A stretch of DNA of 27,514 nt, taken from positions 1 through 27,514 of the IMG/VR virus record IMGVR_UViG_3300047562_000926. One strand, 5' to 3'. The stretch comes from a virus. This document shows positions 1,310 through 22,334 of this stretch, in pieces. The notes beneath the pieces are model-generated. The model did no database searches. It was given only the letters and a program-made list of their open reading frames with translations, and was not told the origin of the DNA. A program made the translations under genes and the position numbers. Every line of letters begins with the position of its first letter. Positions within the stretch are counted from its first letter, which is position 1.

Positions 1310-1317
1310 TATTTATA
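1310..1317 (-). promoter_or_regulatory. T4-type late promoter, leftward
   Basis: The plus strand reads TATTTATA, which is TATAAATA on the minus strand, an exact match to the T4 gp55-dependent late promoter box. It lies 55 bases upstream of the 117-residue gene, allowing a normal leader. Confidence 0.8.
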
Positions 1318-1342: not shown

Positions 1343-1350
1343 TATAAATA
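1343..1350 (+). promoter_or_regulatory. T4-type late promoter, rightward, for the island
   Basis: Exact TATAAATA box in the plus orientation, 33 bases before the ATG at 1383. It is divergent from the box at 1310-1317. It is the only exact plus-strand box I found in the island, so it may serve the whole rightward operon. It also overlaps the upstream ATG at 1338, which argues against that start. Confidence 0.8.
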
Positions 1351-1382: not shown

Positions 1383-2129
1383 ATGAGTTTTAATCGTTAC
1401 TTGGAAAAAACAATCACTAAATCACAAAGATGCCAACGTAATTGGGATCTATCTAAAAGCATTCCTGCTGAAGATATTAAAACAATGATGACATCAGTGA
1501 CACAGTGCTCTTCAAAACAAAATCGTGTATTCTACAAGTGCAAGTTCATCACTAACAGAGAGATCATTGAAAAGATCTACAAGACAACAGGCGGTGCTGG
1601 ATATTATGACCGCACATCTTGGAAAACTTTGGCAGAGTGGGGAATGACAAGAGAAGAGGCTTTATCAAAAGATATGCTTCAAGATCAAAAGAGACCAGAA
1701 TATTGGGCAACAAGAATTTATGATGAGTCAGACGCAAGTATGAATCCTCAAGTTCTTGGAAATCTTTTAGTCGCTTTCATTAGAGATAGAGATCCTTCCG
1801 AAGGATATCGCACTCGTGAAGAAAGAATAAACGGTAAACATTTTAGCCAAGATGAAGAGCATAGTCTCACAAGCCGCGATGAATCTGTAGCGCTAGGTAT
1901 TGGTGCTGGCTACTTGACTCTTACCTCTAATATGCTTGGTTATGCTTCTGGTTGCTGCCAATGCCATGATGAGGATGAAGTAAGTAAAATCCTAGGTGAA
2001 GATGAACCAACTCTATTACTCATGGGCATCGGTTATCCTGATCCAAACAGAAATAGGCTTGAGCATCACCAAGCAGCAAAGAGATTCACTTCACATAATA
2101 AGACAGTTATTGTTGATGAAATAGTGTGA
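1383..2129 (+). CDS. Nitroreductase-like flavoprotein
   Basis: A 248-residue protein when started at the ATG at 1383, chosen because the GGGAGG site and the late promoter both lie upstream of it and downstream of the other in-frame ATG. Features expected of an FMN-dependent nitroreductase fold are an N-terminal basic stretch QRNWDLSKSIP (residues 18-28), the Ser-Lys-Gln-Asn turn near 44-47, and a C-terminal GIGAGYLTLTSNMLGY (172-187) followed by CCQC (191-194) and LLLMGIGYPD (211-220). Similar nitroreductase-family proteins occur in marine T4-like phages. The substrate is unknown; reduction of a quinone, nitro compound or flavin is the family's usual chemistry. It opens the rightward island. 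Its base composition looks like that of the structural genes. Confidence 0.65.
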   Translation: MSFNRYLEKTITKSQRCQRNWDLSKSIPAEDIKTMMTSVTQCSSKQNRVFYKCKFITNREIIEKIYKTTGGAGYYDRTSWKTLAEWGMTREEALSKDMLQDQKRPEYWATRIYDESDASMNPQVLGNLLVAFIRDRDPSEGYRTREERINGKHFSQDEEHSLTSRDESVALGIGAGYLTLTSNMLGYASGCCQCHDEDEVSKILGEDEPTLLLMGIGYPDPNRNRLEHHQAAKRFTSHNKTVIVDEIV

Positions 2130-2144
2130 TCAATCTATTTTATT

Positions 2145-2978
2145 ATGAAGAAAGTGAATATATTATGTACGAGCAAGCCTTGCGATGGCTTGCTCTACTA
2201 TAGCTATGAATATTGCTGCTATCTTAATTTTATTGGGGTAGCAGCAAATCTTATTATAATCACAAATCCAAAATTTTCAGAAGAAAATTATTGTGAATCA
2301 ATAAAAGAAAAATATACCTCATTTGAAAATGTAATCATCAACGATATTATTGATGATAGCACACCCATATTAGTTATGGGAAGAAGCATGATTACCATGG
2401 CTTATTTGGATAGATATGATTATAATATGGACCAAAGGATTATTTTAAGCTTATTATTAAAAAATAAAGTAATAGCAGTATATTCCGAGAATCATGGTTA
2501 CGAATATAATGATGCTTTGGAATACTTTAAACCAAAAGAAATTGTCAATTTATGCGATTACGATGTGTATCCAAATGGTTTGGGAAGTAAATTTGAAAAA
2601 AGAATTTATTTTGACATACATAAACCAATAAAGAATGAAGTAGAATTTGACTATTTGTTTAATGGTGGCAATAGAAGTTATTATGCTGATGTGATGAAAG
2701 TGATTAAAAAATATCCATCACATGGCATTATGGTCTATAATTTAGAATACATCAATGATAGCTATAATCATATATTAATGCCAGTTAAAAATTTATTAGG
2801 TAAATTTAATACCTACGTCTATACAAAATCGATTAACGATCCAGCACCACGTATAATCCAAGAGTGTAAATACTTTAATAAGAACATAATCTTTGAGAGC
2901 AACAACCTGGGCGCCGAGATTTATTATGAACGTGAAATCGAGATTCCAAATGTGGAGAATATATTAAATGAATTATAA
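2145..2978 (+). CDS. Possible GT-B-type glycosyltransferase
   Basis: A 277-residue protein with no strong database-style motif. It opens with a beta strand and hydrophobic stretches (VNILCTS; FIGVAANLIIITNP). The most telling part is the C-terminal region FNTYVYTKSINDPAPR followed by IIQECKYFNKNIIFES (residues 221-252), which resembles the nucleotide-sugar-binding end of GT-B enzymes, where an acidic residue (here E240) holds the donor. VEFDYLFNGGNRSYYADV (166-183) could be the start of the second Rossmann domain. The stop overlaps the next gene by 11 bases. Most of the gene is AT-rich (27-30% G+C in two counted lines), but the last 80-100 bases are visibly richer, as if a recombination junction lies inside it. 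The function is tentative. Confidence 0.4.
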   Translation: MKKVNILCTSKPCDGLLYYSYEYCCYLNFIGVAANLIIITNPKFSEENYCESIKEKYTSFENVIINDIIDDSTPILVMGRSMITMAYLDRYDYNMDQRIILSLLLKNKVIAVYSENHGYEYNDALEYFKPKEIVNLCDYDVYPNGLGSKFEKRIYFDIHKPIKNEVEFDYLFNGGNRSYYADVMKVIKKYPSHGIMVYNLEYINDSYNHILMPVKNLLGKFNTYVYTKSINDPAPRIIQECKYFNKNIIFESNNLGAEIYYEREIEIPNVENILNEL

Positions 2979-4035
2979 CGGATGGGATAGAGAATACTTA
3001 GAGAACAAATCTGAATACCAGAAACTATTCGATGAAGTGATGCAAGTCGATAACGATAGAAACGTAGAGTTTCTAGAGAAGAGAATTGCTGACTACTCAA
3101 ACAGAAGATATGCAGTAGCAGTCAGTAGCGCAACAGATGCGCTGTACTATTCTTTGCTATGCTATGGCATTGGTCCTGGTGATGACGTATTAGTATCAGA
3201 CTTCTCATGGATATCTACTGCCTCTTGCATATCCATGACAGGAGCTAACCCTATCTTCTGTGACATAGACCTAGAGTCTTATCACATCTCGATCGAATCA
3301 ATCCAAGAAAACTATACGTCTAAAACTAAGGCTCTGATCTATACACACCTCTTTGGTAATATGACGGACACTAAAGAGATACAAGATTTTTGTAAAGAAA
3401 AAGGCATTGCGTTTATTGAAGATGCAGCACAGTCACTAGGCTCTAGTTTAAATGGAGTAAAAGCTGGATCGATAGGAGATGTCAGCTCATATAGTTTTAA
3501 TAACAACAAAGTCATCGCTGGTATCTCCGGTGGTGGTATGTTGATGACTGACAACGAAGACTTTGCAAAGTTAGTTAGGAAATTGAGACGTCATGGCAAG
3601 GATAAAGACTATGAGATTCTTGGATACAACTCTAAGATGTTTTATATGAATGCGGCTTTCATTAACTTTAGATTAAACAAAATGGAAGAGTGGCAAAGGC
3701 GCAGACAGAGCATAGCTATGCAATATGAAGATTTCTTTTATGCTTTACCGATCCATTTCCAAACTATGGGTAATGGATTGAATCATAACTATCATAAGTA
3801 TGTTATTCGATTTGAAATAAAAGAAGAAAGAGACTTGATGCGTAAACAATTGAATGCTACAGTGCATTATGATAAACCAATATCTGAAAATTCAAAGTAT
3901 AAATCGATAGGTAAGCCGAACGCTAAGATAGTAAGTGATACGGTCTTATCGCTACCTATACATCCTTGGTTGACAGATCAAGAAATAAATATGATAGGAC
4001 TAAATGTGTCGATGAATGATATTAGAGCATCATGA
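2968..4035 (+). CDS. DegT/DnrJ/EryC1/StrS sugar aminotransferase
   Basis: A 355-residue protein of normal length for this PLP-dependent family, which moves an amino group from glutamate or glutamine to a keto-sugar on a nucleotide carrier. Landmarks in order: SSATDALYYSLL (53-64, the SGT-AL region), GIGPGDDVLV (67-76), EDAAQSLGSS (151-160, with D152 placed to contact the PLP ring nitrogen), and SYSFNNNKVIAGISGGGML (174-192), with K181 as the expected Schiff-base lysine. The start ATG at 2968 has GGAG at 2954-2957 and overlaps the preceding gene. G+C content is about 37% in a counted line, unlike the AT-rich genes on each side. In context it probably makes an amino sugar used by the glycosyltransferases of the island. 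The exact sugar and position cannot be read. Confidence 0.88.
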   Translation: MNYNGWDREYLENKSEYQKLFDEVMQVDNDRNVEFLEKRIADYSNRRYAVAVSSATDALYYSLLCYGIGPGDDVLVSDFSWISTASCISMTGANPIFCDIDLESYHISIESIQENYTSKTKALIYTHLFGNMTDTKEIQDFCKEKGIAFIEDAAQSLGSSLNGVKAGSIGDVSSYSFNNNKVIAGISGGGMLMTDNEDFAKLVRKLRRHGKDKDYEILGYNSKMFYMNAAFINFRLNKMEEWQRRRQSIAMQYEDFFYALPIHFQTMGNGLNHNYHKYVIRFEIKEERDLMRKQLNATVHYDKPISENSKYKSIGKPNAKIVSDTVLSLPIHPWLTDQEINMIGLNVSMNDIRAS

Positions 4036-4061
4036 AAAACAAAAAAAAATAAGGTAATACT

Positions 4062-4733
4062 ATGGCTGATTTAGATTATAAAATAATGAGTCCGTATAAA
4101 AGAGCACACCTCGGTGTCAATATAGACATTACTCACCGTTGTCCATTAGAGTGCCCGGCATGTCAGCGACAAGGTTGGGTACAAAAAGGAAAAAAAGTAC
4201 CTGGCCAGGATATGTCGATCGAGGAATTTAAAAAAATTATAGAATTCTTTCCAGCTCTTACATTCTGTGGCCAAAGATCAGATCCTGTACATCATCCAAA
4301 GTTTTTAGAATTTCTAAAAATTATGTATGAAAAGAAAATAATATGTGGTATTCATAATGCATCATCGGCAAAAAGTGAGGAATGGTATATAAAAGCATTT
4401 AAAGCACACCCATATGCTAGATGGGTATTTGGCATCGATGGCATGCCTAAGGATAGTAGTAAATATAGAATTAACCAGGATGGTGAAAAACTTTTTAACA
4501 TTATGTTAATGTCTAAACAATATCTGAAAAAACCTCCAGTATGGCAATATATTATCTTTAGTTATAATGAAAAAGATATAGAAGAAGCAAAAAGAATAGC
4601 TGAAGAAAATGAAATATATTTCCTATTAGTGCATTCATCAAGATTTACGCAATTAAAAGAAACAGAAAAAACTGATGTCATAAATTTTAAACCAAAAGAA
4701 ACGCAGAATTATGTCAAAACAGATTTTAACTAG
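4062..4733 (+). CDS. Radical SAM protein, SAM-core half
   Basis: A 223-residue protein with the radical SAM cluster motif C27-X3-C31-X2-C34 (THRCPLECPACQRQ), which binds the 4Fe-4S cluster that cleaves S-adenosylmethionine. Downstream are strands typical of the partial TIM barrel: LTFCGQRSDPVHHPKFL, WVFGIDGMP, WQYIIFSYNEKDIEEA and FLLVHSSRFT. RBS AAGG lies at 4051-4054. The frame ends at 4733, and the next frame, starting inside it at 4711, carries the cysteine-rich SPASM-like tail that such proteins normally have in the same chain. The gene is therefore either split by a one-base frameshift (mutation, assembly error or programmed) or has become two subunits. The substrate is unknown. Related proteins in phages and in surface-polysaccharide clusters lie next to aminotransferases, as here. 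Confidence 0.8.
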   Translation: MADLDYKIMSPYKRAHLGVNIDITHRCPLECPACQRQGWVQKGKKVPGQDMSIEEFKKIIEFFPALTFCGQRSDPVHHPKFLEFLKIMYEKKIICGIHNASSAKSEEWYIKAFKAHPYARWVFGIDGMPKDSSKYRINQDGEKLFNIMLMSKQYLKKPPVWQYIIFSYNEKDIEEAKRIAEENEIYFLLVHSSRFTQLKETEKTDVINFKPKETQNYVKTDFN

Positions 4734-5154
4734 CACATTAGATATACCAGAAGCGATGGATGCACGAACGCAAGAAATTACATCAGATAAACTCTATCCA
4801 AAATGTTTAGTTGGCAGTCAACAGTTTGCAGTTGACAACATGGGTCATTTAATACCGTGCTGCCAGTGCGACAGCACATATAATTTAAAAGATAAAAATT
4901 ATATTGAATTTCTTAAATATGTAAAAATAGAGGATTACGAATCAATAGAAGAGATATTACTATCAGATGCTTGGCTATTGTTTGAAGAAAACTTAAAGAA
5001 TAATCAAGGATTCAGAATGTGTCATCGCTATTGCGCCACAAAAGATACTTCATTTAAAAAGGAAGTTACATATATTGGTAAAGAAATTGTCAGACAAATG
5101 AATGATGGGGAACTAAATAATATTCCTAGGATGACAGATTTTAAAAGAAGATAA
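4711..5154 (+). CDS. SPASM-like C-terminal half of the split radical SAM protein
   Basis: A 147-residue frame whose ATG at 4711 lies 23 bases inside the end of the SAM-core gene, in the +1 frame. It has no SAM-cluster motif but has the cysteine spacing of an auxiliary iron-sulphur domain: C32 in LYPKCLVGS, C50-C51-x-C53 in GHLIPCCQCDS, and C104-x3-C108 in RMCHRYC. Phage radical SAM proteins of this type that I know place this pattern after the SAM core in one chain, so this reads as the detached second half. There is no clear ribosome site before 4711; coupling to the stop at 4733 could allow separate translation. It could be a working subunit, the product of a +1 frameshift, or a dead fragment. 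The open frame is intact to its stop. Confidence 0.7.
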   Translation: MSKQILTSTLDIPEAMDARTQEITSDKLYPKCLVGSQQFAVDNMGHLIPCCQCDSTYNLKDKNYIEFLKYVKIEDYESIEEILLSDAWLLFEENLKNNQGFRMCHRYCATKDTSFKKEVTYIGKEIVRQMNDGELNNIPRMTDFKRR

Positions 5155-5163
5155 CAAGACTTG

Positions 5164-6000
5164 ATGGAAAATTTAAAACCTAAAACATATAAAGAGCTAC
5201 TCGATTCTGAATATAAAGGTATTGATTTTTATTTGTCAAAATCTTGTAATAAATCATGCCACTATTGTACGGCATGGACTTTAGAAATGCGAAATCTAGA
5301 TGTTGATATGGATTTTTTCCATAGAACTTTAGAGTATTTAAAACCATTCAAAGCAAGAATAAATTTATTAGGTGGTGAACCAGCACTTATAAAAAATTTG
5401 GATGTTATAATTGCAGAAATAAAAAAATATGATAATCTTATTTGTGCAGTATTATCAAATTCTTTAATAAGAAAAAGATATCCATTCGTTCTTGAAGACC
5501 CGGATATATTTTATTTTGAGCATTTAGTATTAGACTTTCACGAAGACAAAATAGAAAAACTTGGTAATTATAAATTCTTACCGGAAAATAATAAAAATAA
5601 CTATAATTTAATTATAGAAACACCAAAGTATTTTGAATATAGAAATAATTTTAATTTATCAGAAATTGATCATAAAAATACAATCTTTAAAGAATATAAT
5701 TCTAGATCACCATCTTATAATATAAGAGTTCAGGTGCCTGAATTAACTAGAAGAGTTTGCGCTGCATTTCCATCTGTACCGGTAATAGATTTTGAAATCC
5801 AAAAAATTCGTCATTGCAGTAAAAAAGTTATTAATGGTTCTAGACAATTTGACGTAACTAAAGAAAACATTCATCGTATGATGACTTATGATTTATTTGA
5901 ATTTGAAGATTATTGTAAGACTTGCACAGAACAGATACGGCCTCAATTAGAAGAAAAAATATTAATAGTATATGAGTATAACGCAAGGGCCCTGAGATGA
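5164..6000 (+). CDS. Second radical SAM protein with cysteine-rich tail
   Basis: A 278-residue protein started at the ATG at 5164 rather than the TTG just before it. The radical SAM motif is C28-X3-C32-X2-C35 (SCNKSCHYCTAW), followed by the glycine-rich LLGGEPAL at 68-75, the GGE motif that contacts the methionine end of SAM. The C-terminus has further cysteines (RRVCAAFP, IRHCSKK, DYCKTCTE), which suggests an auxiliary cluster. It is very AT-rich (about 18-20% G+C in counted lines). It starts 9 bases after the split radical SAM pair and overlaps the carbamoyltransferase by four bases (ATGA), so all three are probably translated together. The substrate is unknown; a sugar or glycan substrate is suggested only by context. 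Confidence 0.78.
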   Translation: MENLKPKTYKELLDSEYKGIDFYLSKSCNKSCHYCTAWTLEMRNLDVDMDFFHRTLEYLKPFKARINLLGGEPALIKNLDVIIAEIKKYDNLICAVLSNSLIRKRYPFVLEDPDIFYFEHLVLDFHEDKIEKLGNYKFLPENNKNNYNLIIETPKYFEYRNNFNLSEIDHKNTIFKEYNSRSPSYNIRVQVPELTRRVCAAFPSVPVIDFEIQKIRHCSKKVINGSRQFDVTKENIHRMMTYDLFEFEDYCKTCTEQIRPQLEEKILIVYEYNARALR

Positions 6001-7448
6001 AAATTTATAGTATAGCGTTAAGCCCGCATGATCATAACGCGTATGACGGCGTATTTCATGATCAGCAAGAAAGATACACTAGAAGAAAACATAACATATA
6101 TCCAAATCAAGAAGATATAAGACCAATGATCGGATTTTATTTTGATTACTATAATCCTTCTGATCACGAGATATTTGCATTTACAATCACACAAGGTGGT
6201 TTAGAATTACTGCCCCGCAATTTAATTGATGATGATTTTTTAAAATTTAAACCAACAAAATTATGGGATTATTATAGAAAAGACAATGTGTACTATATTG
6301 ATCATCATCAGTCACACGCAACGTATGCATATCTTTCATCTGGATATACAGAATCGGATATCTTAGCTATTGACGGCCGCGGAATAAATTTTAAATGTAT
6401 CTTCATTAATAAAGATGGTGATATTATAGACTTATCAAATGCAGTTAGCATAGGTTCTTTATGGAACTATTTTGCAAAACTTTTGGGATTTGGTAACCTT
6501 GGTGCTGGAAAAATTATGGGTCTGGCTGCGTATGGTGAATATAGTCAAACCATGCAAACAATAATTGATTATTACTGTGATAATAATTTTCAATTTCCAG
6601 ATGGGCATATTGAATTAGTACGCGAACTTAAATTAGCAGATGTTGCATATACATTACAACAAGCTACGATTGAATTAATTAATGAACATGTGTTACCGTT
6701 AAAAACATGTGATAATATTTGTATCGCTGGTGGCGTTGCGTATAATGGTTATATGAATGAGGAATTTACAAAACACTATAAAAATGTATATGTCCCGCCA
6801 GCGCCAGGTGATGAGGGACAGTCACTTGGTGCGTATATGCATGCAGATTATATTTTAAATAATAATGTGCATATTCCTTCAGTCTATGGGGGTAAGGAAT
6901 ATGATTATGTTGGTGATGAAAAGGTAAATTTAATTGAGGTTGCGCAGGCAATTGCCGACGGTAAAATTGTAGGTTGGTTCCAGGGCAAATCAGAGAGTGG
7001 CAATCGTGCCTTAGGTAACCGTAGTATTCTTGCCGACCCACGAAACCCAAATATAAAAGACATAATTAATAGTACTATTAAACTCAGAGAAGATTATAGA
7101 CCTTTCGCACCCACAGTCCTTGAAGAATATTATCAAGAGTATTTTGATACTAATCAACCGAGTCCTTATATGTCAAGAATTGTACCAGTTAAATCTAATA
7201 AAATCCCTGGCGTTACCCATATTGACAATACAGCAAGAATACAAACATTGAATAGAGAACAAAATGCAAAATATTATGATTTAATAAATGAATTCTATAA
7301 AATAACTGGAATCCCGATGCTATTAAATACAAGTTTTAATTGCCAAGAACCTATGGTAGAAACACCCGAGGAAGCAATTAACACATTTTATAAAACACAA
7401 CTTGACTTATTGGTTATTAATGATTATATCTTGCGTAAAATGGGGTGA
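5997..7448 (+). CDS. NodU/CmcH/TobZ-family carbamoyltransferase, full-length
   Basis: A 483-residue two-domain enzyme that transfers a carbamoyl group from carbamoyl phosphate, through a carbamoyl-adenylate, to a hydroxyl of a sugar or natural product. Motifs in the N-terminal Kae1-like domain are ERYTRRKHN (25-33), DHHQSHAT (102-109, metal and substrate histidines), GLAAYG (175-180), IAGGVAYNG (243-251) and PAPGDEGQSLG (268-278). Motifs in the C-terminal YrdC-like domain are VGWFQGKSESGNRALGNRS (325-343), LADPR (345-349), EDYRPFAPTV (365-374) and LLNTSFN (442-448). It is somewhat shorter than many family members (about 550-600) but keeps both domains. The next gene begins 29 bases before its stop. 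In context it likely carbamoylates a sugar made or transferred by the island. Confidence 0.9.
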   Translation: MKIYSIALSPHDHNAYDGVFHDQQERYTRRKHNIYPNQEDIRPMIGFYFDYYNPSDHEIFAFTITQGGLELLPRNLIDDDFLKFKPTKLWDYYRKDNVYYIDHHQSHATYAYLSSGYTESDILAIDGRGINFKCIFINKDGDIIDLSNAVSIGSLWNYFAKLLGFGNLGAGKIMGLAAYGEYSQTMQTIIDYYCDNNFQFPDGHIELVRELKLADVAYTLQQATIELINEHVLPLKTCDNICIAGGVAYNGYMNEEFTKHYKNVYVPPAPGDEGQSLGAYMHADYILNNNVHIPSVYGGKEYDYVGDEKVNLIEVAQAIADGKIVGWFQGKSESGNRALGNRSILADPRNPNIKDIINSTIKLREDYRPFAPTVLEEYYQEYFDTNQPSPYMSRIVPVKSNKIPGVTHIDNTARIQTLNREQNAKYYDLINEFYKITGIPMLLNTSFNCQEPMVETPEEAINTFYKTQLDLLVINDYILRKMG

Positions 7449-8148
7449 TAAATTTACTCACGAACATGTAAACCGTCTGTATAAAATGGCGCTTAAAAAT
7501 TTTGATGATGAATTTACATTTGTTTGTTTTACAGAAAATGGTAATAAATTAAATAATGATATAAAAGTTATACCATTAGATCTTTCATATGATTTAGAAA
7601 ATTGGTGGTGGAAATTATTATTATTTAAAAATCCATCAGAAGACGTAAATCTATTTTTTGATTTGGATGTTGTGATCCAAAATAACATTACACATTTAAA
7701 AGAATATGCTATAGAAAATAAGCTTTGTATGATAAAAGCTTATTGGAAACCTTACGAATTAAGTAGGTCGCATGCGTTATTTGATACAAATTTTAATTCA
7801 TCCATATTAGCCTGGAAAGGTGATTTGAGTATAATTTGGAAATCTTTTTTAGAAGATCCAGAATATTTTATGTCAAAATACAATGGCATAGATTCTTTTA
7901 TTGATTACCATCATAATGAAAAAATACATTTTTTTAAAAAAGGCATTGCATATTCCAGATTATACGGTATAGATGAAAATAATTATTGGCGAAATGTTAA
8001 TGGTACAATTCAACCCAAATATTTTTTTGAACCCAATTATAGTGTGTGTATATTCAACGGCTGGAGAAGAAAAACAGATATAGATAATGGGAATAAATAT
8101 TTCCTAGACAATGAAGGGTATAAAGGCTTTGAGCACTATTGGAATTGA
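7420..8148 (+). CDS. GT-A-fold glycosyltransferase
   Basis: A 242-residue protein started at the ATG at 7420, because MIISCVKWGDKFTHEHVNRL is the usual N-terminal strand and helix of this class; an upstream TTG would add six residues. The donor- and metal-binding DxD motif is LFFDLDVV (DLD at 81-83), preceded by WWWKLLLFK. FNSSILAWKGD is the usual central strand, and the tail has FFEPNYSVCIFNGW. It belongs broadly to small nucleotide-sugar transferases like GT8 relatives of T4-like phages. It overlaps the carbamoyltransferase stop by 29 bases and the next gene by 38 bases, so translation is probably coupled. It is AT-rich. Donor and acceptor are unknown. Confidence 0.75.
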   Translation: MIISCVKWGDKFTHEHVNRLYKMALKNFDDEFTFVCFTENGNKLNNDIKVIPLDLSYDLENWWWKLLLFKNPSEDVNLFFDLDVVIQNNITHLKEYAIENKLCMIKAYWKPYELSRSHALFDTNFNSSILAWKGDLSIIWKSFLEDPEYFMSKYNGIDSFIDYHHNEKIHFFKKGIAYSRLYGIDENNYWRNVNGTIQPKYFFEPNYSVCIFNGWRRKTDIDNGNKYFLDNEGYKGFEHYWN

Positions 8149-8851
8149 TTATCCATATTGGAAAGTTTTATGGGACGCTAAAAATGATGGTTATGATACA
8201 AGATATGTATTAGATGCTTTATCGCCGAATCAAATAGAATCAAAAACATGGTTAGTAAATATCCTTTCACTTTTGAATCTTGATAATGAATTAAAAGTAC
8301 AACTATATGGTGGTTGGCTTGGATTCCCATTAATTGATTTATTATCTGAACATTTTGATATTAAGTATTTACAAAATATCGAATTAGACGAAAAGGCATT
8401 AATAATATATAGAAAATTTACAGAATATAAAAATCTAGACAGCTTAGTTTATGATTTAAAACTTATTGATGTCAGAGAAGAAGATAGTGATTATACACCT
8501 GATTCTGGAAAAGAAAAAAAATGGAAAAAGATATGTAAATGTGTAACTAAAGATAATTATGTAAAATTTCAATTAAAAGAATTACCACTTATAAACTTGG
8601 TTATAAACACATCCGGCGAACACATGCCAGATTTACCAGAATTAATTAAAAATAAAACATATCAAAAACAATGTTTATTTGTTGTGCAAAGTAATAATAT
8701 GTTTCATATTCCAGATCATATAAATTGTGTTAATTCTGAAAAAGAACTCTTGGAAAAATGTAAATTTGAAAACGTACATTATTCTGGTACAATGAAGATG
8801 CCAAATGATTATGAAAGATACATGGTAATAGGCGATTATGCAAAAAAGTAA
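8111..8851 (+). CDS. Class I methyltransferase-like protein
   Basis: A 246-residue frame. KVQLYGGWLGFPLIDLL (62-78) followed by LQNIELDEKALIIY (87-100) fits strand 1, the glycine-rich SAM loop and the acidic end of strand 2 (E91) of a class I methyltransferase. The later NTSGEHMPDLPELI resembles a segment I know in phage methyltransferase-like proteins. The start is uncertain: the ATG at 8111 overlaps the preceding gene by 38 bases, and a TTG at 8129 would begin just before STIGIDYPYWKV, where homology probably starts. The stop overlaps the next gene by 14 bases. O-methylation of a sugar would fit the neighbours, but the acceptor is not shown. Confidence 0.55.
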   Translation: MKGIKALSTIGIDYPYWKVLWDAKNDGYDTRYVLDALSPNQIESKTWLVNILSLLNLDNELKVQLYGGWLGFPLIDLLSEHFDIKYLQNIELDEKALIIYRKFTEYKNLDSLVYDLKLIDVREEDSDYTPDSGKEKKWKKICKCVTKDNYVKFQLKELPLINLVINTSGEHMPDLPELIKNKTYQKQCLFVVQSNNMFHIPDHINCVNSEKELLEKCKFENVHYSGTMKMPNDYERYMVIGDYAKK

Positions 8852-9692
8852 AGTAATTTACAGTTTATACATCGACATTTCAGAAGACGAATTAGACTAC
8901 CAACCACCACACTGGAATAGCACAGTACCTAAGAACGAATATGCCAAGTCGCAGTTTAAAGAGTACTATGACTGGCTTAAGCGCATGCACATTCAATACG
9001 CAGAGAAGTGCGGTGTAGAATATAAGCTGTTTGAATACGATCAGGATTATATTGACTATAAGAACTGGTTCAATGAGAAGTATCCACAGATCGTATCATA
9101 TAACATAGTGAACTTTTACAAGATACACTTACTTTATAAACTCGCTGAAGAGTATGATGAGATAGCTTACTTAGACTTTGATGTTGTGCCGGTGTCAAAC
9201 AATAACCTGTTTGAACATCATGATCTGAATGAAGGTATACACATTATGTATAGTGGAGACGTTGGAACTCCAGGACCTTCACATAGTAACAGATCACCTA
9301 CGGCAAAGTATTGGAATGCTCGAGCAATGTTTATGTATGATGAGTTGCCTAGCCATCACGGTGTGTTTAATACAGGTATTATTATAACAAATAAGAAGCA
9401 TCTAGAACAATTACAGTACTATGAAAACTTTGATGATGTCTTAAGATTAATGGATGAGATAAAGAAAGATGAAACGTTTGATGACAATACTAGAAGAATG
9501 TTTGGCTATGACAACGAAACGATATGGGCATATAAGACGGTGAAGAATAACGTTAAAGTTGTAAACCTCCATGAGTCATGGCATCACTTCATGGACAAAT
9601 GGAACTATATTCCAAGAGATACAAACTTAGTTCATACTATCAACAAGAACTTTGACTATGTAAAGAGCTGGTATGAGAAGACTCATCTTTAG
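8838..9692 (+). CDS. GT-A-fold glycosyltransferase, copy 1
   Basis: A 284-residue protein. The DxD motif is IAYLDFDVVP (DFD at 113-115), preceded by NFYKIHLLYKLAEEYDE and followed by HHGVFNTGIIITNKKHLEQ, the usual acceptor-side strand. The C-terminus contains LHESWHHFMDKWNYIPRDTN and ends FDYVKSWYEKTHL. It is a paralogue of the next gene (shared YDE, Y-DFDV-P, NTG and W-F/Y-I landmarks). Base composition changes at its start: about 35% G+C in a counted line, versus 17% in the gene before. It overlaps both neighbours (14 and 20 bases). The likely role is transfer of a nucleotide-activated sugar in the cytoplasm of the infected cell. Confidence 0.78.
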   Translation: MQKSKVIYSLYIDISEDELDYQPPHWNSTVPKNEYAKSQFKEYYDWLKRMHIQYAEKCGVEYKLFEYDQDYIDYKNWFNEKYPQIVSYNIVNFYKIHLLYKLAEEYDEIAYLDFDVVPVSNNNLFEHHDLNEGIHIMYSGDVGTPGPSHSNRSPTAKYWNARAMFMYDELPSHHGVFNTGIIITNKKHLEQLQYYENFDDVLRLMDEIKKDETFDDNTRRMFGYDNETIWAYKTVKNNVKVVNLHESWHHFMDKWNYIPRDTNLVHTINKNFDYVKSWYEKTHL

Positions 9693-10431
9693 CATTTACA
9701 CTGATAACCTTGATCCTCACTCATCTGCATCTGATTATAAGAAGGAGCAGTTTAGAATATATCGAGACAGGATAATTGAAGTTCAGAGAGGATATGCGTT
9801 TCTATGTAATGCAGACTATGCTCTACAAACAACTGAGATCTCAGACTATAACCTATTGCAGTTTGAAAAGCTTGTACTATTTCAAAAGGCAATTCAACAA
9901 TATGATGAGGTGCTTTATATAGATTTTGATGTGCTTCCTATAACTAAGACTAACTTCTTTAAAAAGTTTGATTTAAACAATATATGCGCATATAGTTTTG
10001 ACAGAAAACTTACAAAAGGTCAACTGATCGATAACCTAATTGATCCTATGAATGTATACGCTAAGACATGTTGCAAGAATGCTATGTTGCTTATCGATGA
10101 CATCGTTGGATCTAATGAGCTTATTAATACTGGAGTCTTAGCTGGGAATAAAAAGTCAATTGAAAGACTAGACTTTATTAGCAATCTAGAAGATATGCAT
10201 AAGATATATCAGCAAGCAAAAGAAGATAACGTATATCCAGAAAACATCACTGAAAACTGGTTTCCAAACAACGAAGCGTTTATATCGTATCTCATTGAGA
10301 AAAACAAAGTGCCTTTTACCAACATAGGCATTCAGTGGAACTTTATCTTAGATAAGTTTTGTCCTAAGCCTACGGCTGGGTGTCACTTTCTTCATCACGT
10401 AAACAAAGAATTTGAGTTAAGCTTTCAATGA
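9673..10431 (+). CDS. GT-A-fold glycosyltransferase, copy 2
   Basis: A 252-residue paralogue of the preceding gene. DxD motif VLYIDFDVLP (DFD at 84-86), NELINTGVLAGNKKS as the NTG strand, then IGIQWNFILDKFC and the C-terminus HFLHHVNKEFELSFQ. That C-terminus is repeated almost exactly in the remnant at 12191. The start ATG at 9673 lies 20 bases inside the previous gene, and the stop overlaps the short carbamoyltransferase gene by four bases. Compared with copy 1 it lacks the insertion around residues 15-35 and part of the middle. Donor and acceptor are unknown; two consecutive paralogues suggest two successive sugar additions or diverged acceptors. Confidence 0.78.
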   Translation: MRRLIFSIYTDNLDPHSSASDYKKEQFRIYRDRIIEVQRGYAFLCNADYALQTTEISDYNLLQFEKLVLFQKAIQQYDEVLYIDFDVLPITKTNFFKKFDLNNICAYSFDRKLTKGQLIDNLIDPMNVYAKTCCKNAMLLIDDIVGSNELINTGVLAGNKKSIERLDFISNLEDMHKIYQQAKEDNVYPENITENWFPNNEAFISYLIEKNKVPFTNIGIQWNFILDKFCPKPTAGCHFLHHVNKEFELSFQ

Positions 10432-11279
10432 ATATCTGGGGAATGTCAGGTAAAGGGCATGATGCATCAATTGTTGTTTTTAAAAACAGTAAGGTTGTTT
10501 TTGAAAACTATACTCGTGACAGAGAGCATGACATACTCATCATAAATCAAATAAAAGAAGCCTATGATGAACCAGACTTAGTTGTGTGGTATGAGAATCC
10601 GTGGAAGAAGATGTTCCGTCAATGGTGGGATGGCCATAAGAACTTTTACTCTGAAAACAACATAAAAAGATATCTAAGATCAAAAGGTATAACGTGTCGA
10701 TACCACCATCTCGATCATCACAGAAGCCACTCGGGACATCAATATGATAGCCCCTATGGTAACCCCTTAGTCATAGTTGCAGACTCAATTGGTGATATTG
10801 ATTGCACTTCAGTCTGGTTAAAGAATAAGAAGCTCGCTTCAATCAACTATCCTCATAGCATAGGACTATTCTACAGCTCAATGGTAAAAGCTACAGGTAT
10901 GATTCCCAATCAGGATGAAGCTGAGTTCGAGAAGATATCAAAACAATATGAAATAGATTATGATTTTAAAGCCTATATAAAAGATAGGTTTATTGTAGAT
11001 CACATATGGGCTCCACTATTTAAAACAAATTTGCACAAAGGCACAAAGCTGAACGTATCACCAGAAATACTAGCACCAGTTACTCAAAGTATATTTGAAG
11101 ACATGATAGAAAAGATCTATTATCATTGGACTTCTAGGGTTAAGTGCGATGGAGTTGTATTTGCTGGAGGTTGTGCTTTTAATAAATCAATAAGAGATAA
11201 GATTAACGTGTGGGTTCCAAAAAATCCTGGTGACGGAGGATCTGCTCGATCATGCGTATGGAGTTATTTAAATGCTTAA
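10428..11279 (+). CDS. Short carbamoyltransferase, Kae1-like domain only
   Basis: A 283-residue relative of the NodU/CmcH carbamoyltransferases that ends after the first domain. Seen: MNIWGMSGKGHDASIVV at the N-terminus (family start with GHDAS), HHLDHHRSHSGH (93-104, HH-SH metal and substrate motif), YPHSIGLFYSSMVKATGM (141-158), VFAGGCAFNKS (244-254) and VPKNPGDGGSA (263-273). Nothing corresponds to the YrdC-like C-terminal domain (no GNRALGNRS, no LNTSFN), and the stop follows PGDGGSA closely, so this is a compact form and not a frame break. In known full-length enzymes the YrdC-like domain makes the carbamoyl-adenylate; here that step could come from the enzyme at 5997 or the host. It overlaps both neighbours (4 and 8 bases). 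Confidence 0.78.
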   Translation: MNIWGMSGKGHDASIVVFKNSKVVFENYTRDREHDILIINQIKEAYDEPDLVVWYENPWKKMFRQWWDGHKNFYSENNIKRYLRSKGITCRYHHLDHHRSHSGHQYDSPYGNPLVIVADSIGDIDCTSVWLKNKKLASINYPHSIGLFYSSMVKATGMIPNQDEAEFEKISKQYEIDYDFKAYIKDRFIVDHIWAPLFKTNLHKGTKLNVSPEILAPVTQSIFEDMIEKIYYHWTSRVKCDGVVFAGGCAFNKSIRDKINVWVPKNPGDGGSARSCVWSYLNA

Positions 11280-11991
11280 AGTTTTAGCTGCTGGTTGTAG
11301 TCACACTGATAAAAATTTTAGATCGGTTTGGTATCCAGATCTAGACACATCATGGAAAAAATGGCCAGAAGTTTTTTCAGATAAACTTGGAGCTGAGTGC
11401 ACCAACGTTGGAAGATCTGGTTATGGTAATAATAGAATATTTAAGTCTTGCATGCTTGAGCTAGCAAAAAACAAATATGATATAGTAGTGATATTATGGT
11501 CAGACTCTACAAGAATAGACATATATGATTCATATACGTTTTTTCCGTGCACCAATCCTAATTCAAGACCACCTAATAATAGTTCTGCAAAAAATAATTT
11601 AATGGATGAATGGATAAGAGAAGGCGTTGATCATAAGTATTATGACTTAGTAGCCGGCATAAAAATGACTATTGATAATATGTTCATTATTCAAGAATAT
11701 TGTAAAGCACAAGGTATAAAACTAATTCAAATGATGTACAGCGGAGATTTTGCGCCTCAAGATAAGACAACAAAATATCACATGAGTTTAATGACTATGG
11801 AATACGATCTAAGAAAACAATTAGATAAAAGTTGTTGGGGCTATCCGTTTAATAAAATAAACGCAAAATCAATTGTATACGATGAGCTAGGAGCAGATTA
11901 TTCTATTTCTGTTTTAGATAAACACTTTAGCGAACAAGGGCATTGGATACTAGGGAACTATTTCTATGAAACATATAATAAGTTATATTGA
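11272..11991 (+). CDS. SGNH/GDSL hydrolase-like protein
   Basis: A 239-residue protein with SGNH-fold landmarks: VLAAGCSHTD (4-13), with S10 as candidate nucleophile; NVGRSGYGNNRI (45-56), with the Gly and Asn of blocks II/III; VVILWSDSTRID; and DKHFSEQGHWILG (216-228), whose D216 and H218 fit the catalytic Asp-His pair. Family members are esterases, acetyl-hydrolases or acyl-transferring enzymes that add or remove acetyl groups on glycans. As the last intact enzyme of the rightward operon it could trim or O-acylate the glycan. It starts 8 bases inside the short carbamoyltransferase gene. Composition is moderately AT-rich. Confidence 0.68.
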   Translation: MLKVLAAGCSHTDKNFRSVWYPDLDTSWKKWPEVFSDKLGAECTNVGRSGYGNNRIFKSCMLELAKNKYDIVVILWSDSTRIDIYDSYTFFPCTNPNSRPPNNSSAKNNLMDEWIREGVDHKYYDLVAGIKMTIDNMFIIQEYCKAQGIKLIQMMYSGDFAPQDKTTKYHMSLMTMEYDLRKQLDKSCWGYPFNKINAKSIVYDELGADYSISVLDKHFSEQGHWILGNYFYETYNKLY

Positions 11992-12082
11992 GCTCACTTG
12001 GTGGAAGATTAAATTATTTTTTATAAAGCCAAAAAAAGAAGACGGAAACTTCATCTATGAAGACGAGGATCATTTGCGTTAG
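11966..12082 (+). CDS. Small 38-residue protein, unknown function
   Basis: The frame from the ATG at 11966 to the TAG at 12080-12082 encodes MKHIISYIELTWWKIKLFFI then KPKKEDGNFIYEDEDHLR. The first half is hydrophobic and Trp/Phe-rich, and the second half charged and acidic, as in small membrane-associated phage proteins. It overlaps the end of the SGNH gene by 26 bases; a weak AGGGA lies at 11953-11957. The FIYEDE ending reminds me of short uncharacterised proteins of marine T4-like phages, but I cannot confirm this. It could also be chance. Confidence 0.45.
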   Translation: MKHIISYIELTWWKIKLFFIKPKKEDGNFIYEDEDHLR

Positions 12083-12152
12083 AGTTGGCGACTTATATGA
12101 TGAGTGGTGGGTAGATAATCTGCGACACATGAATCGATCAGTATCTCTATGA
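12057..12152 (+). pseudogene. Glycosyltransferase N-terminal remnant
   Basis: A 31-codon frame opening MKTRIICVRVGDLYDEWWVD and NLRHM before diverging into a short tail and stopping at 12150-12152. The opening has the first beta strand and helix of phage GT-A transferases (compare IISCVKWGDKFTHEHVNRL at 7423 on). No more of the gene follows: a terminator hairpin comes within eight bases. It overlaps the 38-residue frame by 26 bases, the way genes overlap throughout the island. It is read as the truncated start of a deleted glycosyltransferase gene. Confidence 0.55.
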
Positions 12153-12159
12153 AATAAAA

Positions 12160-12185
12160 AACCCCTCAGTTTTCACCGAGGGGTT
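12160..12185 (-). terminator. Rho-independent terminator, leftward
   Basis: AACCCCTC (12160-12167) pairs with GAGGGGTT (12178-12185) across a 10-base loop. On the minus strand the stem is followed by TTTT, A, TTT; on the plus strand no T run follows. It should stop leftward transcripts from the baseplate genes before they run antisense through the island; weaker action on the rightward operon is possible. Confidence 0.85.
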
Positions 12186-12190
12186 CTGCT

Positions 12191-12247
12191 CATTTTATTC
12201 ATCACGTTAATAAAGAATTTGAACTGAGTTTTACAAATGTGGTATGA
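12191..12247 (+). pseudogene. Glycosyltransferase C-terminal remnant
   Basis: The plus strand from 12191 encodes HFIHHVNKEFELSF then TNVV and stop. The first 14 residues match the C-terminus of the glycosyltransferase at 9673-10431 (HFLHHVNKEFELSF) at 13 of 14 positions, with 34 of 42 bases identical and almost all differences synonymous. In the next frame the following bases read MWYELYKKRQ, recalling WYEK at the end of the paralogue at 8838-9692, so a frameshift may also have occurred. No start or body of a gene precedes it, only the terminator. It is a relic of a third family member. Confidence 0.75.
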
Positions 12248-12273
12248 GCTTTATAAGAAAAGACAATTATCTA

Positions 12274-12777
12274 TTATTTTTCAATTTCATTAGACATATT
12301 TTCAGCTATTTCCAGGCCAATCCGTACTGCTTCTACAATAGTAGTAGCTTTTCTAAGCTCCATTTTCTTTTGTTTATCTTTACATTGCTTAACAATATCA
12401 AGTTCAAATAATTGAAGTTTAATTAGGAAAAGATCTTCTTTATCAGTTTTGGCATTAACAGTATCAAATAATTTTTCGATTAATACTTTATACACTCCGC
12501 TCTCGTGGGTATTGATATCATAAAGTAGACCGTCTTGCTTTGCATACGCTAACACGCGCTTCTTATACTCTTCCTGCGTTGCACGAATGTACTTGTATGT
12601 GTTTTCGTGAAGAGTGTCGATGTCGATATGTGTCAAAATCTCTTCCCACGCAGCATCGCCTTCGACTGCTTCATGATATGTCGCTACGAGGTTTTCTTCT
12701 GGGTCTTCCCAAGTGACTTCAACGGTTGTTCTCTCGTTGTTAGAGAATCTTGCTGTGATGAATTTCAAGCCGTTCAT
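12274..12777 (-). CDS. Conserved phage protein, unknown function
   Basis: A 167-residue protein starting at the ATG at 12775-12777, which overlaps the stop of the preceding gene (ATGA). Its N-terminal part has a short beta pattern (LKFITARFSNNERTTVEVTW), followed by an acidic, helix-rich body and a Lys/Glu-rich C-terminus with likely amphipathic helices (LFLIKLQLFELDIVKQCKDK). No enzymatic motif was recognised. It is the last gene of the leftward late unit before the terminator at 12160-12185, so a virion or assembly role is plausible but not shown. Confidence 0.6.
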   Translation of the reverse strand: MNGLKFITARFSNNERTTVEVTWEDPEENLVATYHEAVEGDAAWEEILTHIDIDTLHENTYKYIRATQEEYKKRVLAYAKQDGLLYDINTHESGVYKVLIEKLFDTVNAKTDKEDLFLIKLQLFELDIVKQCKDKQKKMELRKATTIVEAVRIGLEIAENMSNEIEK

Positions 12778-13709
12778 GCTGATTTTCCTATCTTCAGGTA
12801 ATAAGTGTTGATTGTTTGTGCAGTGCCGTTTGGAAACTCTTGGGCGCGATAGTCATCTGCATTGACAAAACGCGTCTGATAGTTGCCAGAACCATCAAGT
12901 TTTGTATCAGTCATACCAGAGCCTCGGTTGTTTCCAGTGGTGTAACTGTAACGAATCTTATAGTTAGTTCTGTTTGCTGCGGCATATCTCACGTAGTTCT
13001 GCAGCATCGTGTTAAAGTCACTCTCGGTATACGTCTGCAAATGGTTGTCACTTGTTCTCAACGATAGAGGTGAAGTAAACGAAGATGCGGATCCGTCTAT
13101 TGAGAACAAGTAAAAATTAGTGATAGTTGTAGGTTGATCTAGTGTCTCTGGAATAGATCCAGCAGTATATGCGGCCGTGTCTGCACGGGTGTCAGAGAAT
13201 ACAGCTGTTCCACTTGTAAGAGTATTGCCACTCAGTGACGTAGCCGTATAGATTTGATACGTACCACCTTGTGCAGTAGTTGTCGAACTAGACACTAAGT
13301 TATCAATTGCAGGTTCGATGATAGTGTTGTAGAAGTCTTCTTCTGTCATCACCTGTAGACCAGATCCTGTCCAGTACAGAGGTAAAGTTTTACCTGTTGC
13401 CGGCGTTGGAGCTGACACAGAAGCTACTGTCTCATTGATCTTACTATGATTGACCGTGACTGTAGAGGGTTCAGCCGTCTCACCTTCAGTCGGATATCTA
13501 GTAGTAAATGTACGATAGGCTCCAGCTTGAGTTCTAGTGTCACTCAACGTACCTAGACTACCACCAGAAGACACGACGCTCAAAGTCACAGACGGATTCA
13601 AGCTATATTGATAAGATACTTGAGCGATGATCTGATTGAGTTGCGATGAAGTCATCTCCTTCATCGATCCGCTGGCTGTATCCCAATACATTGGTCGTCT
13701 TACAGCCAT
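12774..13709 (-). CDS. Virion structural protein with three internal repeats
   Basis: A 311-residue Ser/Thr/Gly-rich protein starting at the ATG at 13707-13709 with an AGGGAG site upstream. It is built from three similar modules: MYWDTASGSMKEMTSSQLNQ, then LYWTGSGLQVMTEEDFYNTI, then a third with LSLRTSDNHLQTYTESDFNT; each goes on to a helix (IIAQVSYQY, IEPAIDNLV, MLQNYVRYA) and an aromatic beta stretch (YRTFTTRY, YQIYTATS, YKIRYSYTT). The repeated design suggests a fibre or baseplate appendage. Such proteins occur beside the giant DUF4815-type protein in marine T4-like phages. The exact role is unknown. Confidence 0.65.
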   Translation of the reverse strand: MAVRRPMYWDTASGSMKEMTSSQLNQIIAQVSYQYSLNPSVTLSVVSSGGSLGTLSDTRTQAGAYRTFTTRYPTEGETAEPSTVTVNHSKINETVASVSAPTPATGKTLPLYWTGSGLQVMTEEDFYNTIIEPAIDNLVSSSTTTAQGGTYQIYTATSLSGNTLTSGTAVFSDTRADTAAYTAGSIPETLDQPTTITNFYLFSIDGSASSFTSPLSLRTSDNHLQTYTESDFNTMLQNYVRYAAANRTNYKIRYSYTTGNNRGSGMTDTKLDGSGNYQTRFVNADDYRAQEFPNGTAQTINTYYLKIGKSA

Positions 13710-21356: not shown

Positions 21357-22334
21357 TCAATAGAAGGAATCCCCGATTGAATCTAAGTAGATCGTGTACA
21401 TGTCGTTGTCCATCGTCTCGAGTGCCAACGAGAAGTCAGGCGTCGCTCTCAGAGCACTGTCTCTCGTATCACTATCGTCGAATGTAAACGAGTTTGGAGT
21501 CAAGACTTCTGCAAGTGAAGAGTAATAGTTCTCTAGTTGCGTTGGTGTCAGTGTAGAGTATGTTGAGATCTTGTCATCAAGTCTGATACGATAGTCAACA
21601 CCATCTCCAACAGAGTCAAAGAGGCCTGTGAATTGCGTGAACTCTGGTTCTACTGCAAACTCTGCTGTACTAGAAAGAATAGGACCTGTGATGGCAGAGT
21701 CTCTTGGATTTTCTGAAGCTGATGTTAAAGCAAAATCCTTTACGCCTTCAAGTTCAACTTGTCCTGCAAAATAAAAACCTGCTGGGTGAACAAATTTTAA
21801 ATACAGATCGTTATATGTATTAGTACCTAAAGCAGATTTAATTAAGAGAGAAAAGATTTGATATAAAGCATTGTTTTGAATAAACCTTAGTGACTCATAG
21901 CCAATCTCAGACTCACCGACAATGAACATGTTTCTTTTAGGATATTCAACGTTGACTTCTTGGCCAAAGAAACCACGAAAGAAACCTTCAATTGAACTAC
22001 GTGTACCTTTGACACGATAAAATCGTGATAATAATGACGTCATCAGCCTTGGATTGTCAAAGAAAGAAGATGACTTAAGGCCTAACCCAATCTCTTGCAA
22101 GATATAATCTAACTTATCAAGATCTACTTGATCTGGATCTCTTAAAACGAAAAGTTGATTGATGTCTCTCTTAAAAGAGTGTGTGTTTTCGTTTTCTAGA
22201 TACTCGTAATACTTCTCTAAGAAAGTTACAATGTTAGGATAACTCTCTAAGAAATACTCAGGAAGTGCTTCTCGAACTTTACTCTTCGAGAAGCTTAAAT
22301 TACGACGGTTAAGATCTTGTACTTTATGTGTCAT
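21357..22334 (-). CDS. Baseplate wedge protein, gp7/tail-protein-I-like
   Basis: A 325-residue protein. The ATG at 22332-22334 overlaps the stop of gp6 (ATGA). The N-terminal half has the pattern of the tail-protein-I/gp7 wedge fold: ALPEYFLESYPNIVTFLEKY (residues 23-42), YILQEIGLG, and the key FYRVKGTRSSIEGFFRGFFG near residues 105-124. T4 gp7 is far larger (over 1000 residues), so only the core would be kept here; this is why the symbol is left open. The C-terminal part is Asp/Ser-rich and of unknown use. Position directly after gp25 and gp6 supports a wedge role. Confidence 0.6.
   Translation of the reverse strand: MTHKVQDLNRRNLSFSKSKVREALPEYFLESYPNIVTFLEKYYEYLENENTHSFKRDINQLFVLRDPDQVDLDKLDYILQEIGLGLKSSSFFDNPRLMTSLLSRFYRVKGTRSSIEGFFRGFFGQEVNVEYPKRNMFIVGESEIGYESLRFIQNNALYQIFSLLIKSALGTNTYNDLYLKFVHPAGFYFAGQVELEGVKDFALTSASENPRDSAITGPILSSTAEFAVEPEFTQFTGLFDSVGDGVDYRIRLDDKISTYSTLTPTQLENYYSSLAEVLTPNSFTFDDSDTRDSALRATPDFSLALETMDNDMYTIYLDSIGDSFY

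Follow-up and report, generated by a model that had tools for sequence, protein, structure and literature searches.

What does a marine phage do with two radical S-adenosylmethionine (SAM) enzymes, a carbamoyltransferase, a glycosyltransferase, and a methyltransferase encoded in one tightly packed cassette? The question is raised by positions 4062 to 8851 of IMG/VR record IMGVR_UViG_3300047562_000926, a fragment of a phage genome that we analyzed as the entire record (27,514 bases; here called the window). A sequence-only reading had described these coupled genes and suggested that they make an unusual carbamoylated sugar for the virion or the host surface. The open reading frames (ORFs) and their overlaps are present as it described them (Table 1). 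We conclude that the cassette is an exchangeable operon in the host-recognition/tail fiber slot of a marine T4-like phage, a variant of the islands in pelagimyophage host recognition clusters. With a probability of about 0.57, we propose that it tailors sugars: its enzymes would build an unusual sugar with amino, O-carbamoyl, and probably methyl substituents and transfer it to an acceptor.

Dozens of ocean phages carry this gene set. We gathered IMG/VR loci with the carbamoyltransferase (CarbT) alone, and 27 distinct loci had at least 6 kb of flanking sequence on each side. The sequence-only reading had made conservation of the set in related phages one test of its inference, and in these 27 loci the set is conserved: the methyltransferase (MT) is found in 26, a DegT aminotransferase in 25, the twitch-type radical SAM enzyme (rSAM_C) in 24, a 277-amino-acid protein with a GT-B-like fold in 24, the radical SAM core protein (rSAM_A) in 23, its SPASM-like partner (SPASM_B) in 22, and the glycosyltransferase GT1 in 16. 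In the reverse direction, 31 of 32 distinct rSAM_C loci carry CarbT and all 32 carry DegT. Adding loci found with rSAM_C brought the total to 92 distinct loci; among these, rSAM_C was located immediately 5' of CarbT in 63, MT immediately 3' of it in 54, and GT1 immediately 3' of it in 18; 579 of the 584 core genes within 9 kb are on the CarbT strand. Since gene content and strand are kept across many contigs, chance is excluded as an explanation. Relatives of rSAM_C are encoded by at least 297 IMG/VR stretches, and among 50,697 annotated phage records the only match is in Mosig EXVC030M, which has the cassette at the same genomic site.

Members of the set are also fused to one another. GT1 is joined to MT in L011, L098 to L100, L103 to L105, L107, L109, and L112 (L numbers denote individual loci), and SPASM_B is joined to a GT1-like domain in L023 to L025. 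In L027, CarbT is joined to a twitch-domain radical SAM protein (NF033640; E = 8e-88), and in L055 its fusion partner is a radical SAM domain; CarbT ORFs of a length similar to these fusions occur in L016, L038, L049, L053, and L071. Together with the fusions of rSAM_A to SPASM_B (L050, L116, and L142), they argue for one shared pathway.

A radical SAM enzyme encoded as two genes is the rule in these cassettes, and this arrangement is new here. The sequence-only reading had counted two radical SAM enzymes, and both of its CX3CX2C motifs hold up, each being invariant in its family (for rSAM_A, across 22 aligned sequences); to this we add that the gene following rSAM_A encodes a SPASM-like partner, with invariant cysteines at C32, C50, C51, C104, and C108. 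SPASM_B lies as a gene of its own within 150 bases of 68 of the 81 distinct rSAM_A genes; 3 others are fusions with it, and the remaining 10 show neither arrangement. Because of the three natural fusions, we regard rSAM_A and SPASM_B as halves of one enzyme. In NCBIfam, rSAM_A matches W_rSAM_matur (3.6e-9), far under the cutoff of that family. A Baltic Sea survey reported 261 viral "ahbD" genes, with both PF04055 and PF13186 in only three contigs (PMC9301287). Such rarity is the outcome expected if the core and auxiliary parts sit in separate genes, and some viral "ahbD" calls from marine metagenomes may be radical SAM and SPASM-like genes of islands such as this one. With core and partner encoded separately, nature also provides a way to test the role of an auxiliary-cluster domain.

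The second enzyme, rSAM_C, has seven invariant cysteines, i.e., C29, C33, and C36 of the CX3CX2C motif and C200, C219, C252, and C255 (numbered from the TTG at 5161); the last four are spaced C-x18-C-x32-C-x2-C, and the alignment contains no further invariant cysteine. The single auxiliary cluster of BtrN is held by four cysteines and that of MoaA by three, while SPASM domains typically hold two clusters (PMC9012708). The C-terminal cysteines of rSAM_C match the single-cluster pattern of the BtrN/SpeY type, and we consider the cluster putative. The approximately seven cysteines of SPASM maturases with two auxiliary clusters were found in neither rSAM_C (four) nor SPASM_B (five invariant cysteines). 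A Foldseek search with the AlphaFold model of rSAM_C (predicted local distance difference test [pLDDT], 84) returned BtrN as the best match (1.8e-5) and also listed the twitch dehydrogenase SpeY, as well as EpeE, anSME, BlsE, and AbmM; at the sequence level, the similarity between BtrN and rSAM_C is remote (E = 0.024). BtrN, an enzyme of butirosin biosynthesis, turns an alcohol into a ketone (PMC9012708). On the basis of the four-cysteine twitch pattern and the top fold match, we propose a BtrN-like oxidation for rSAM_C. Alternatively, the radical SAM step could be an epimerization, a deoxygenation, or the formation of a C-C bond, in a sugar-tailoring pathway whose DegT enzyme takes a keto sugar made by the host. 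The matches to BlsE and AbmM, which belong to antibiotic sugar pathways, and to the epimerase EpeE would suit this explanation, as would an epimerase function of the 277-amino-acid protein, but four cysteines at the auxiliary site and BtrN as the leading fold match favor oxidation and make it rather improbable.

The families of the other enzymes point to sugars. In the DegT protein, the presumed pyridoxal phosphate lysine is within SFNNNK, as read from the sequence; the best PDB match is glutamine:scyllo-inositol transaminase (3.5e-63), followed by QdtB and WbpE, and the protein falls below the LegC and PseC equivalog cutoffs (185 versus 420 and 185 versus 423.5, respectively). The HHQSHA and GNRALGNRS motifs from which the carbamoyltransferase had been recognized vary little across 26 relatives, with few substitutions, and Carbam_trans_N and Carbam_trans_C occur in one protein, which matches the novobiocin carbamoyltransferase, GdmN, and TobZ in the PDB. 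CarbT thus shares both domains and the motifs with the O-carbamoyltransferases NodU, TobZ, and GdmN and the novobiocin enzyme. However, it differs from them in forming its own phage subfamily, which is sometimes fused to a radical SAM protein, and it is not a NodU equivalog (NF041651; 138 bits versus a cutoff of 1000). The glycosyltransferase assignment of GT1 is supported by its PHROG match (Table 1), and a start at 7420 yields MIISCVKWGD, the conserved N terminus of its relatives. The methyltransferase of the sequence-only reading is probable rather than proven: the window protein has no direct Pfam or PHROG match, while 8 of 24 relatives match Methyltransf_25 (best, 2.5e-5) and 7 of 24 match Spermine_synth. 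Beyond GT2 and GT3, the cassette encodes a lone carbamoyltransferase N-terminal domain (CarbN2), which has a single weak relative in phage records and homologs adjoining GT2-GT3 in L201 and L204. CarbN2 may use carbamoyladenylate supplied by the full-length enzyme.

Two observations concern relatives of these proteins. A CarbN2 relative is encoded on the opposite strand right after the cassette of an otherwise different phage (L093:9290-10258). Proteins with SGGxDS, an ATP pyrophosphatase motif, occur in or near related cassettes (L105:5604-7070, L008:3968-4720, L168:7627-9912, and others); one of them is fused to the twitch radical SAM family that is also found fused to CarbT, and sugar amidation or thiolation is possible.

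The model of the 277-amino-acid protein matched PimA best (E = 2.4e-5) in Foldseek and also UDP-GlcNAc 2-epimerase and T4 AGT, with template modeling (TM) scores that were low throughout. DNA hypermodification pathways include carbamoyltransferases and glycosyltransferases, and the match to T4 AGT recalls them; the cassette could then protect the DNA from host nucleases by making a modified base, i.e., a hydroxymethylated cytosine or uracil that bears carbamoyl and glycosyl groups. This is very unlikely. The slot belongs to the tail region, DegT and GT8 proteins belong to surface sugar pathways, and of 6 records with the cassette, 5 (Mosig among them) lack PF00303 (thymidylate synthase and dCMP hydroxymethylase), although the window is a fragment and base oxidases were not searched for.

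The scheme that we prefer builds on observed families, motifs, conservation, and fusions; its substrates, order of steps, and target are inferred. First, rSAM_C, and perhaps also rSAM_A/SPASM_B, would convert a hydroxyl of a sugar or cyclitol to a ketone by BtrN/SpeY-like radical dehydrogenation, and the DegT enzyme, a clear member of its family, would transaminate the ketone. CarbT, likewise clear in its family, would make carbamoyladenylate and move the carbamoyl group onto a hydroxyl, MT would add a methyl group, and the GT-B-like and GT8/GT-A proteins would transfer the sugar. The acceptor may be a surface glycan of the host, whose receptors would be altered against competing phages, or the tail/fiber proteins of the phage itself. 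We propose radical oxidation followed by transamination because the cassette has the BtrN and DegT enzyme types and no recognized sugar dehydratase; among the cassette genes of the window, neither a sugar dehydratase nor an NAD-dependent dehydrogenase was recognized. The butirosin pathway also includes a DegT aminotransferase, and its logic resembles the one proposed here, with the twitch pattern and top fold match in common. The carbamoylated sugar of the sequence-only reading is thereby supported in part, and it is still the best interpretation of a set comprising DegT, CarbT, GT8 and other glycosyltransferases, a probable MT, and an rSAM_C with a BtrN fold match. More tentatively, the set may form a phage-specific aminosugar pathway, in which the split radical SAM enzyme and the BtrN-like dehydrogenase supply keto groups to DegT before carbamoylation, methylation, and transfer to the host surface or fibers, and which would have evolved in marine viruses rather than been borrowed from the hosts searched.

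Several points weigh against the sugar proposal. The activity of every gene product is predicted, and the probable assignment of MT comes from its relatives. No nucleotide-sugar synthesis gene was recognized in the window, so the sugar precursor would come from the host or from genes outside the fragment. Finally, the fold matches of rSAM_C to the peptide-modifying enzymes CteB (5.8e-5) and SuiB (1.1e-4) nearly equal that to BtrN, with TM scores of approximately 0.4 to 0.6. These matches, and those to EpeE and anSME close behind, suit another explanation, in which the radical SAM enzymes modify an amino acid side chain of a protein (e.g., a tail/fiber or host surface protein) and the transferases and CarbT decorate that residue. 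Many SPASM enzymes act on peptides (PMC9012708), the slot sits among tail fiber genes, and two small genes beside it, g12774 and g12274, are found among annotated phages only in Mosig, which also has rSAM_C. Nevertheless, this explanation is unlikely: DegT, carbamoyltransferases, and GT8 are mostly sugar enzymes, and the cysteines of rSAM_C follow the four-cysteine twitch pattern rather than that of SPASM. When 34 g12774 loci with 9 kb or more downstream were compared, GT2 was present in 25, a radical SAM gene in 23, and CarbT in 12, but 9 had no cassette family; conversely, some loci with the cassette lack g12774. We therefore rejected g12774 and g12274 as acceptors by association. A gene for the precursor of a ribosomally synthesized and posttranslationally modified peptide is likewise absent from 1383 to 11991, where gaps of less than 30 bases leave no room for one, and we rejected a cluster of that type.

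The operon to which the proposed sugar-tailoring enzymes belong is larger than the stretch first noticed and extends on both sides of it, from about 1383 to 11991 (Table 1). A family without assignment that is nitroreductase-like by its SKNQ stretch is present in 63 of the 92 related cassettes. The G+C content of positions 4062 to 8835 is 30%, compared with 36 to 37% for the adjoining DegT gene and the GT2-to-CarbN2 genes and 41% for the structural genes; 4062 to 8851 thus forms a compositional unit. The cassette is on the plus strand, and the baseplate and tail genes are on the minus strand. It is flanked by a tail fiber assembly gene (901 to 1254) on one side and by g12274 and g12774 on the other. 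The baseplate gene (22331 to 24160) matches T4-like myophages, the closest being Phage C48C1 (46%), followed by Melnitz, HTVC008M, and Mosig. Like the pelagimyophage host recognition clusters, the slot is hypervariable, lies between baseplate/VrlC and tail fiber genes, and contains glycosyltransferases. The backbone G+C content (41%, versus 30% in Mosig; PMC7892664) bears on the question of a SAR11 host.

Table 1. Features of the operon and its borders in the window
Feature	Position	Strand	Evidence and remarks
T4-type late promoter motif TATAAATA	1310-1317	-	Reads toward tail fiber assembly gene 901-1254; similar motif at nearly every homologous junction of relatives
T4-type late promoter motif TATAAATA	1343-1350	+	~33 bases 5' of the likely first ATG of the operon (1383)
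Nitroreductase-like flavoprotein	1383-2129 (ORF 1338-2129; GGAGG before ATG 1383)	+	Pfam Nitroreductase, E 3e-4, just under cutoff; homolog in L006
277-amino-acid conserved protein, GT-B-like fold; probable glycosyltransferase or epimerase	2145-2978	+	AlphaFold pLDDT 94.8; in 24/27 related loci
DegT/DnrJ/EryC1 sugar aminotransferase	2968-4035	+	Pfam PF01041, 1.5e-79, 268 bits, above cutoff
rSAM_A, radical SAM core protein, CX3CX2C	4062-4733	+	Pfam Radical_SAM, 0.002; phrog_21308, 7e-12
SPASM_B, SPASM/twitch-like iron-sulfur partner of rSAM_A, separate gene	4711-5154	+	Pfam SPASM, 0.006
rSAM_C, twitch-type radical SAM enzyme	5164-6000 (ATG; TTG 5161 also possible)	+	Pfam, 4.8e-7
CarbT, NodU/TobZ-type O-carbamoyltransferase, Kae1-like N domain and Carbam_trans_C	5997-7448	+	PF02543, 2.6e-20; PF16861, 4.3e-67; phrog_1601, 2e-110
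GT1, glycosyltransferase, DLDVV motif	7420-8148	+	phrog_1962, E 9e-15; fused to MT in several relatives
MT, probable class I SAM-dependent methyltransferase (GGWxG ... NxDxD ... NTSxEHM)	8111-8851	+	Alignments and matches of relatives
GT2, GT8-like glycosyltransferase, resident in slot	8838-9692	+	Glyco_transf_8 match in 9/16 relatives, best 2.2e-8; kept in sibling L199
GT3, glycosyltransferase-like, DFDV motif	9673-10431	+	Alignment; paired with GT2 in L199, L201, L204, and others
CarbN2, lone carbamoyltransferase N-terminal (Kae1-like) domain	10428-11279	+	Carbam_trans_N, 5.5e-10; PF16861 absent
SGNH-hydrolase-like protein	11272-11991	+	Motif reading; no Pfam match; homologs frequent in related cassettes
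Remnant of GT1-like gene	12066-12160	+	tblastn with L199 protein, E 7e-10
Strong hairpin, terminator-like	12158-12187		Between convergent gene runs; detected on minus strand
Remnant: GT3 3' end, then start of rSAM-like gene (weak)	12164-12290	+	tblastn, E 6e-7 and 0.008
g12274	12274-12777	-	Small gene beside VrlC-like and gp8-like genes
g12774	12774-13709	-	Small gene beside VrlC-like and gp8-like genes

An exact copy of TATAAATA precedes the first cassette gene in L008, L094, and Mosig as well as in the window, and a copy with one mismatch does so in L012, L088, L154, and L169. We dropped it as an indication of late expression timing: sigma70-like promoters occur in L088, L099, and L105, and the motif count in the window is 4, versus 4.8 by chance. 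Neither an Rfam match nor a tRNA was found. A small plus-strand ORF, MKHIISYIELTWWKIKLFFIKPKKEDGNFIYEDEDHLR (approximately 11967 to 12083), overlaps the end of the SGNH-like gene.

The slot itself is highly modular. Judged by the baseplate gene, the nearest annotated phage is C48C1; its corresponding interval contains a 10-kb gene (L172:11012-21055, i.e., 141011 to 151054; approximately 3347 amino acids; possibly a giant adhesin) and small hypothetical genes but no cassette. The sibling L199, whose g12774 is 86% identical, has approximately 4 kb in the slot, with GT2, GT3, an undivided 363-amino-acid radical SAM/SPASM-like protein, and a GT1-like gene; a methyltransferase-like gene is on the opposite strand. 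Remnants in the window at 12066 to 12290, between the SGNH-like gene and g12274, correspond to intact L199 genes. It looks as though the block at 1383 to 8851 entered an L199-type slot beside the resident GT2-GT3 pair, while CarbN2-SGNH replaced the radical SAM and GT1-like genes. Such modularity (the 4 kb of L199, the giant gene of C48C1, and the gene remnants) could mean that the genes are passenger DNA, i.e., packaging filler without a coherent pathway, a possibility that was also raised for cyanophage lipopolysaccharide genes (PMC3037559). However, active-site residues are invariant across divergent homologs, gene order and strand are conserved, and fusions recur, all of which make filler highly improbable.

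Within the groups searched, a host origin of the rSAM_C family was rejected. Of 1151 genomes from Pelagibacterales, Alphaproteobacteria, and Gammaproteobacteria, 3 contained the family. Phage tail genes accompany it on two of these contigs (L115 and L116), and the third contig is 7.6 kb long with cassette genes only. A pattern-based scan of GTDB yielded none. NodU-like genes of Pelagibacterales occur in 235 of 397 genomes and are far more distant (at most 332 bits, versus 878 for the phage-type copy). Thus, the rSAM_C family looks phage specific within the groups searched.

The sequence-only reading knew of no described phage combining these genes, which needs correction, since Mosig EXVC030M (MT647606, genes 82 to 94) carries a homologous set at the same site. 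Its slot between tail fiber and baseplate genes and its strand layout are alike, and it shares homologs of the GT-B-like protein, rSAM_A, SPASM_B, DegT, rSAM_C, CarbT (62%), the methyltransferase, and GT2. In contrast, its gene order is partly shuffled, its other glycosyltransferases differ, and it lacks CarbN2. Its annotation goes no further than molybdenum cofactor enzymes, carbamoyltransferase, aminotransferase, and hypothetical proteins, and the genome announcement does not discuss these genes. Beside the Mosig cassette, a second packed run on the minus strand (L003:8551-14804) encodes Asp/Arg hydroxylases, an acetyltransferase, a methylase, a TauD-like dioxygenase, a peroxiredoxin, a flavin reductase, an aminotransferase, and a desaturase-like protein.

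Other reports touch parts of the system. Pelagimyophage host recognition clusters are rich in glycosyltransferases and contain radical SAM cassettes (PMC7029224); location and general content are alike, but the main text describes no carbamoyltransferase, split enzyme, or pathway. Carbamoyltransferases are present in cyanophages (PMC3037559). The Nol-like ones of S-CAM8 and S-SSM7 belong to the CarbT family (approximately 30 to 40% identity) but, at the two loci read, lie outside any radical SAM/DegT cassette. Radical SAM genes of marine phages also include the viral "ahbD" genes (PMC9301287) and the 12 present in a T4-like marine genome (PMC5332604). In the open-access literature, we found no paper that treats these genes together as one system or that describes the split enzyme or the fusions.

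Few poorly explained auxiliary genes of marine viruses are as common as those for radical SAM enzymes, which are frequently labeled ahbD, queE, or moaA. One cultured phage, Mosig, makes the question of their role testable. If the sugar-tailoring proposal is true, part of the viral radical SAM genes would belong to glycan-tailoring islands for cell-surface recognition or competition rather than to heme or cofactor metabolism.

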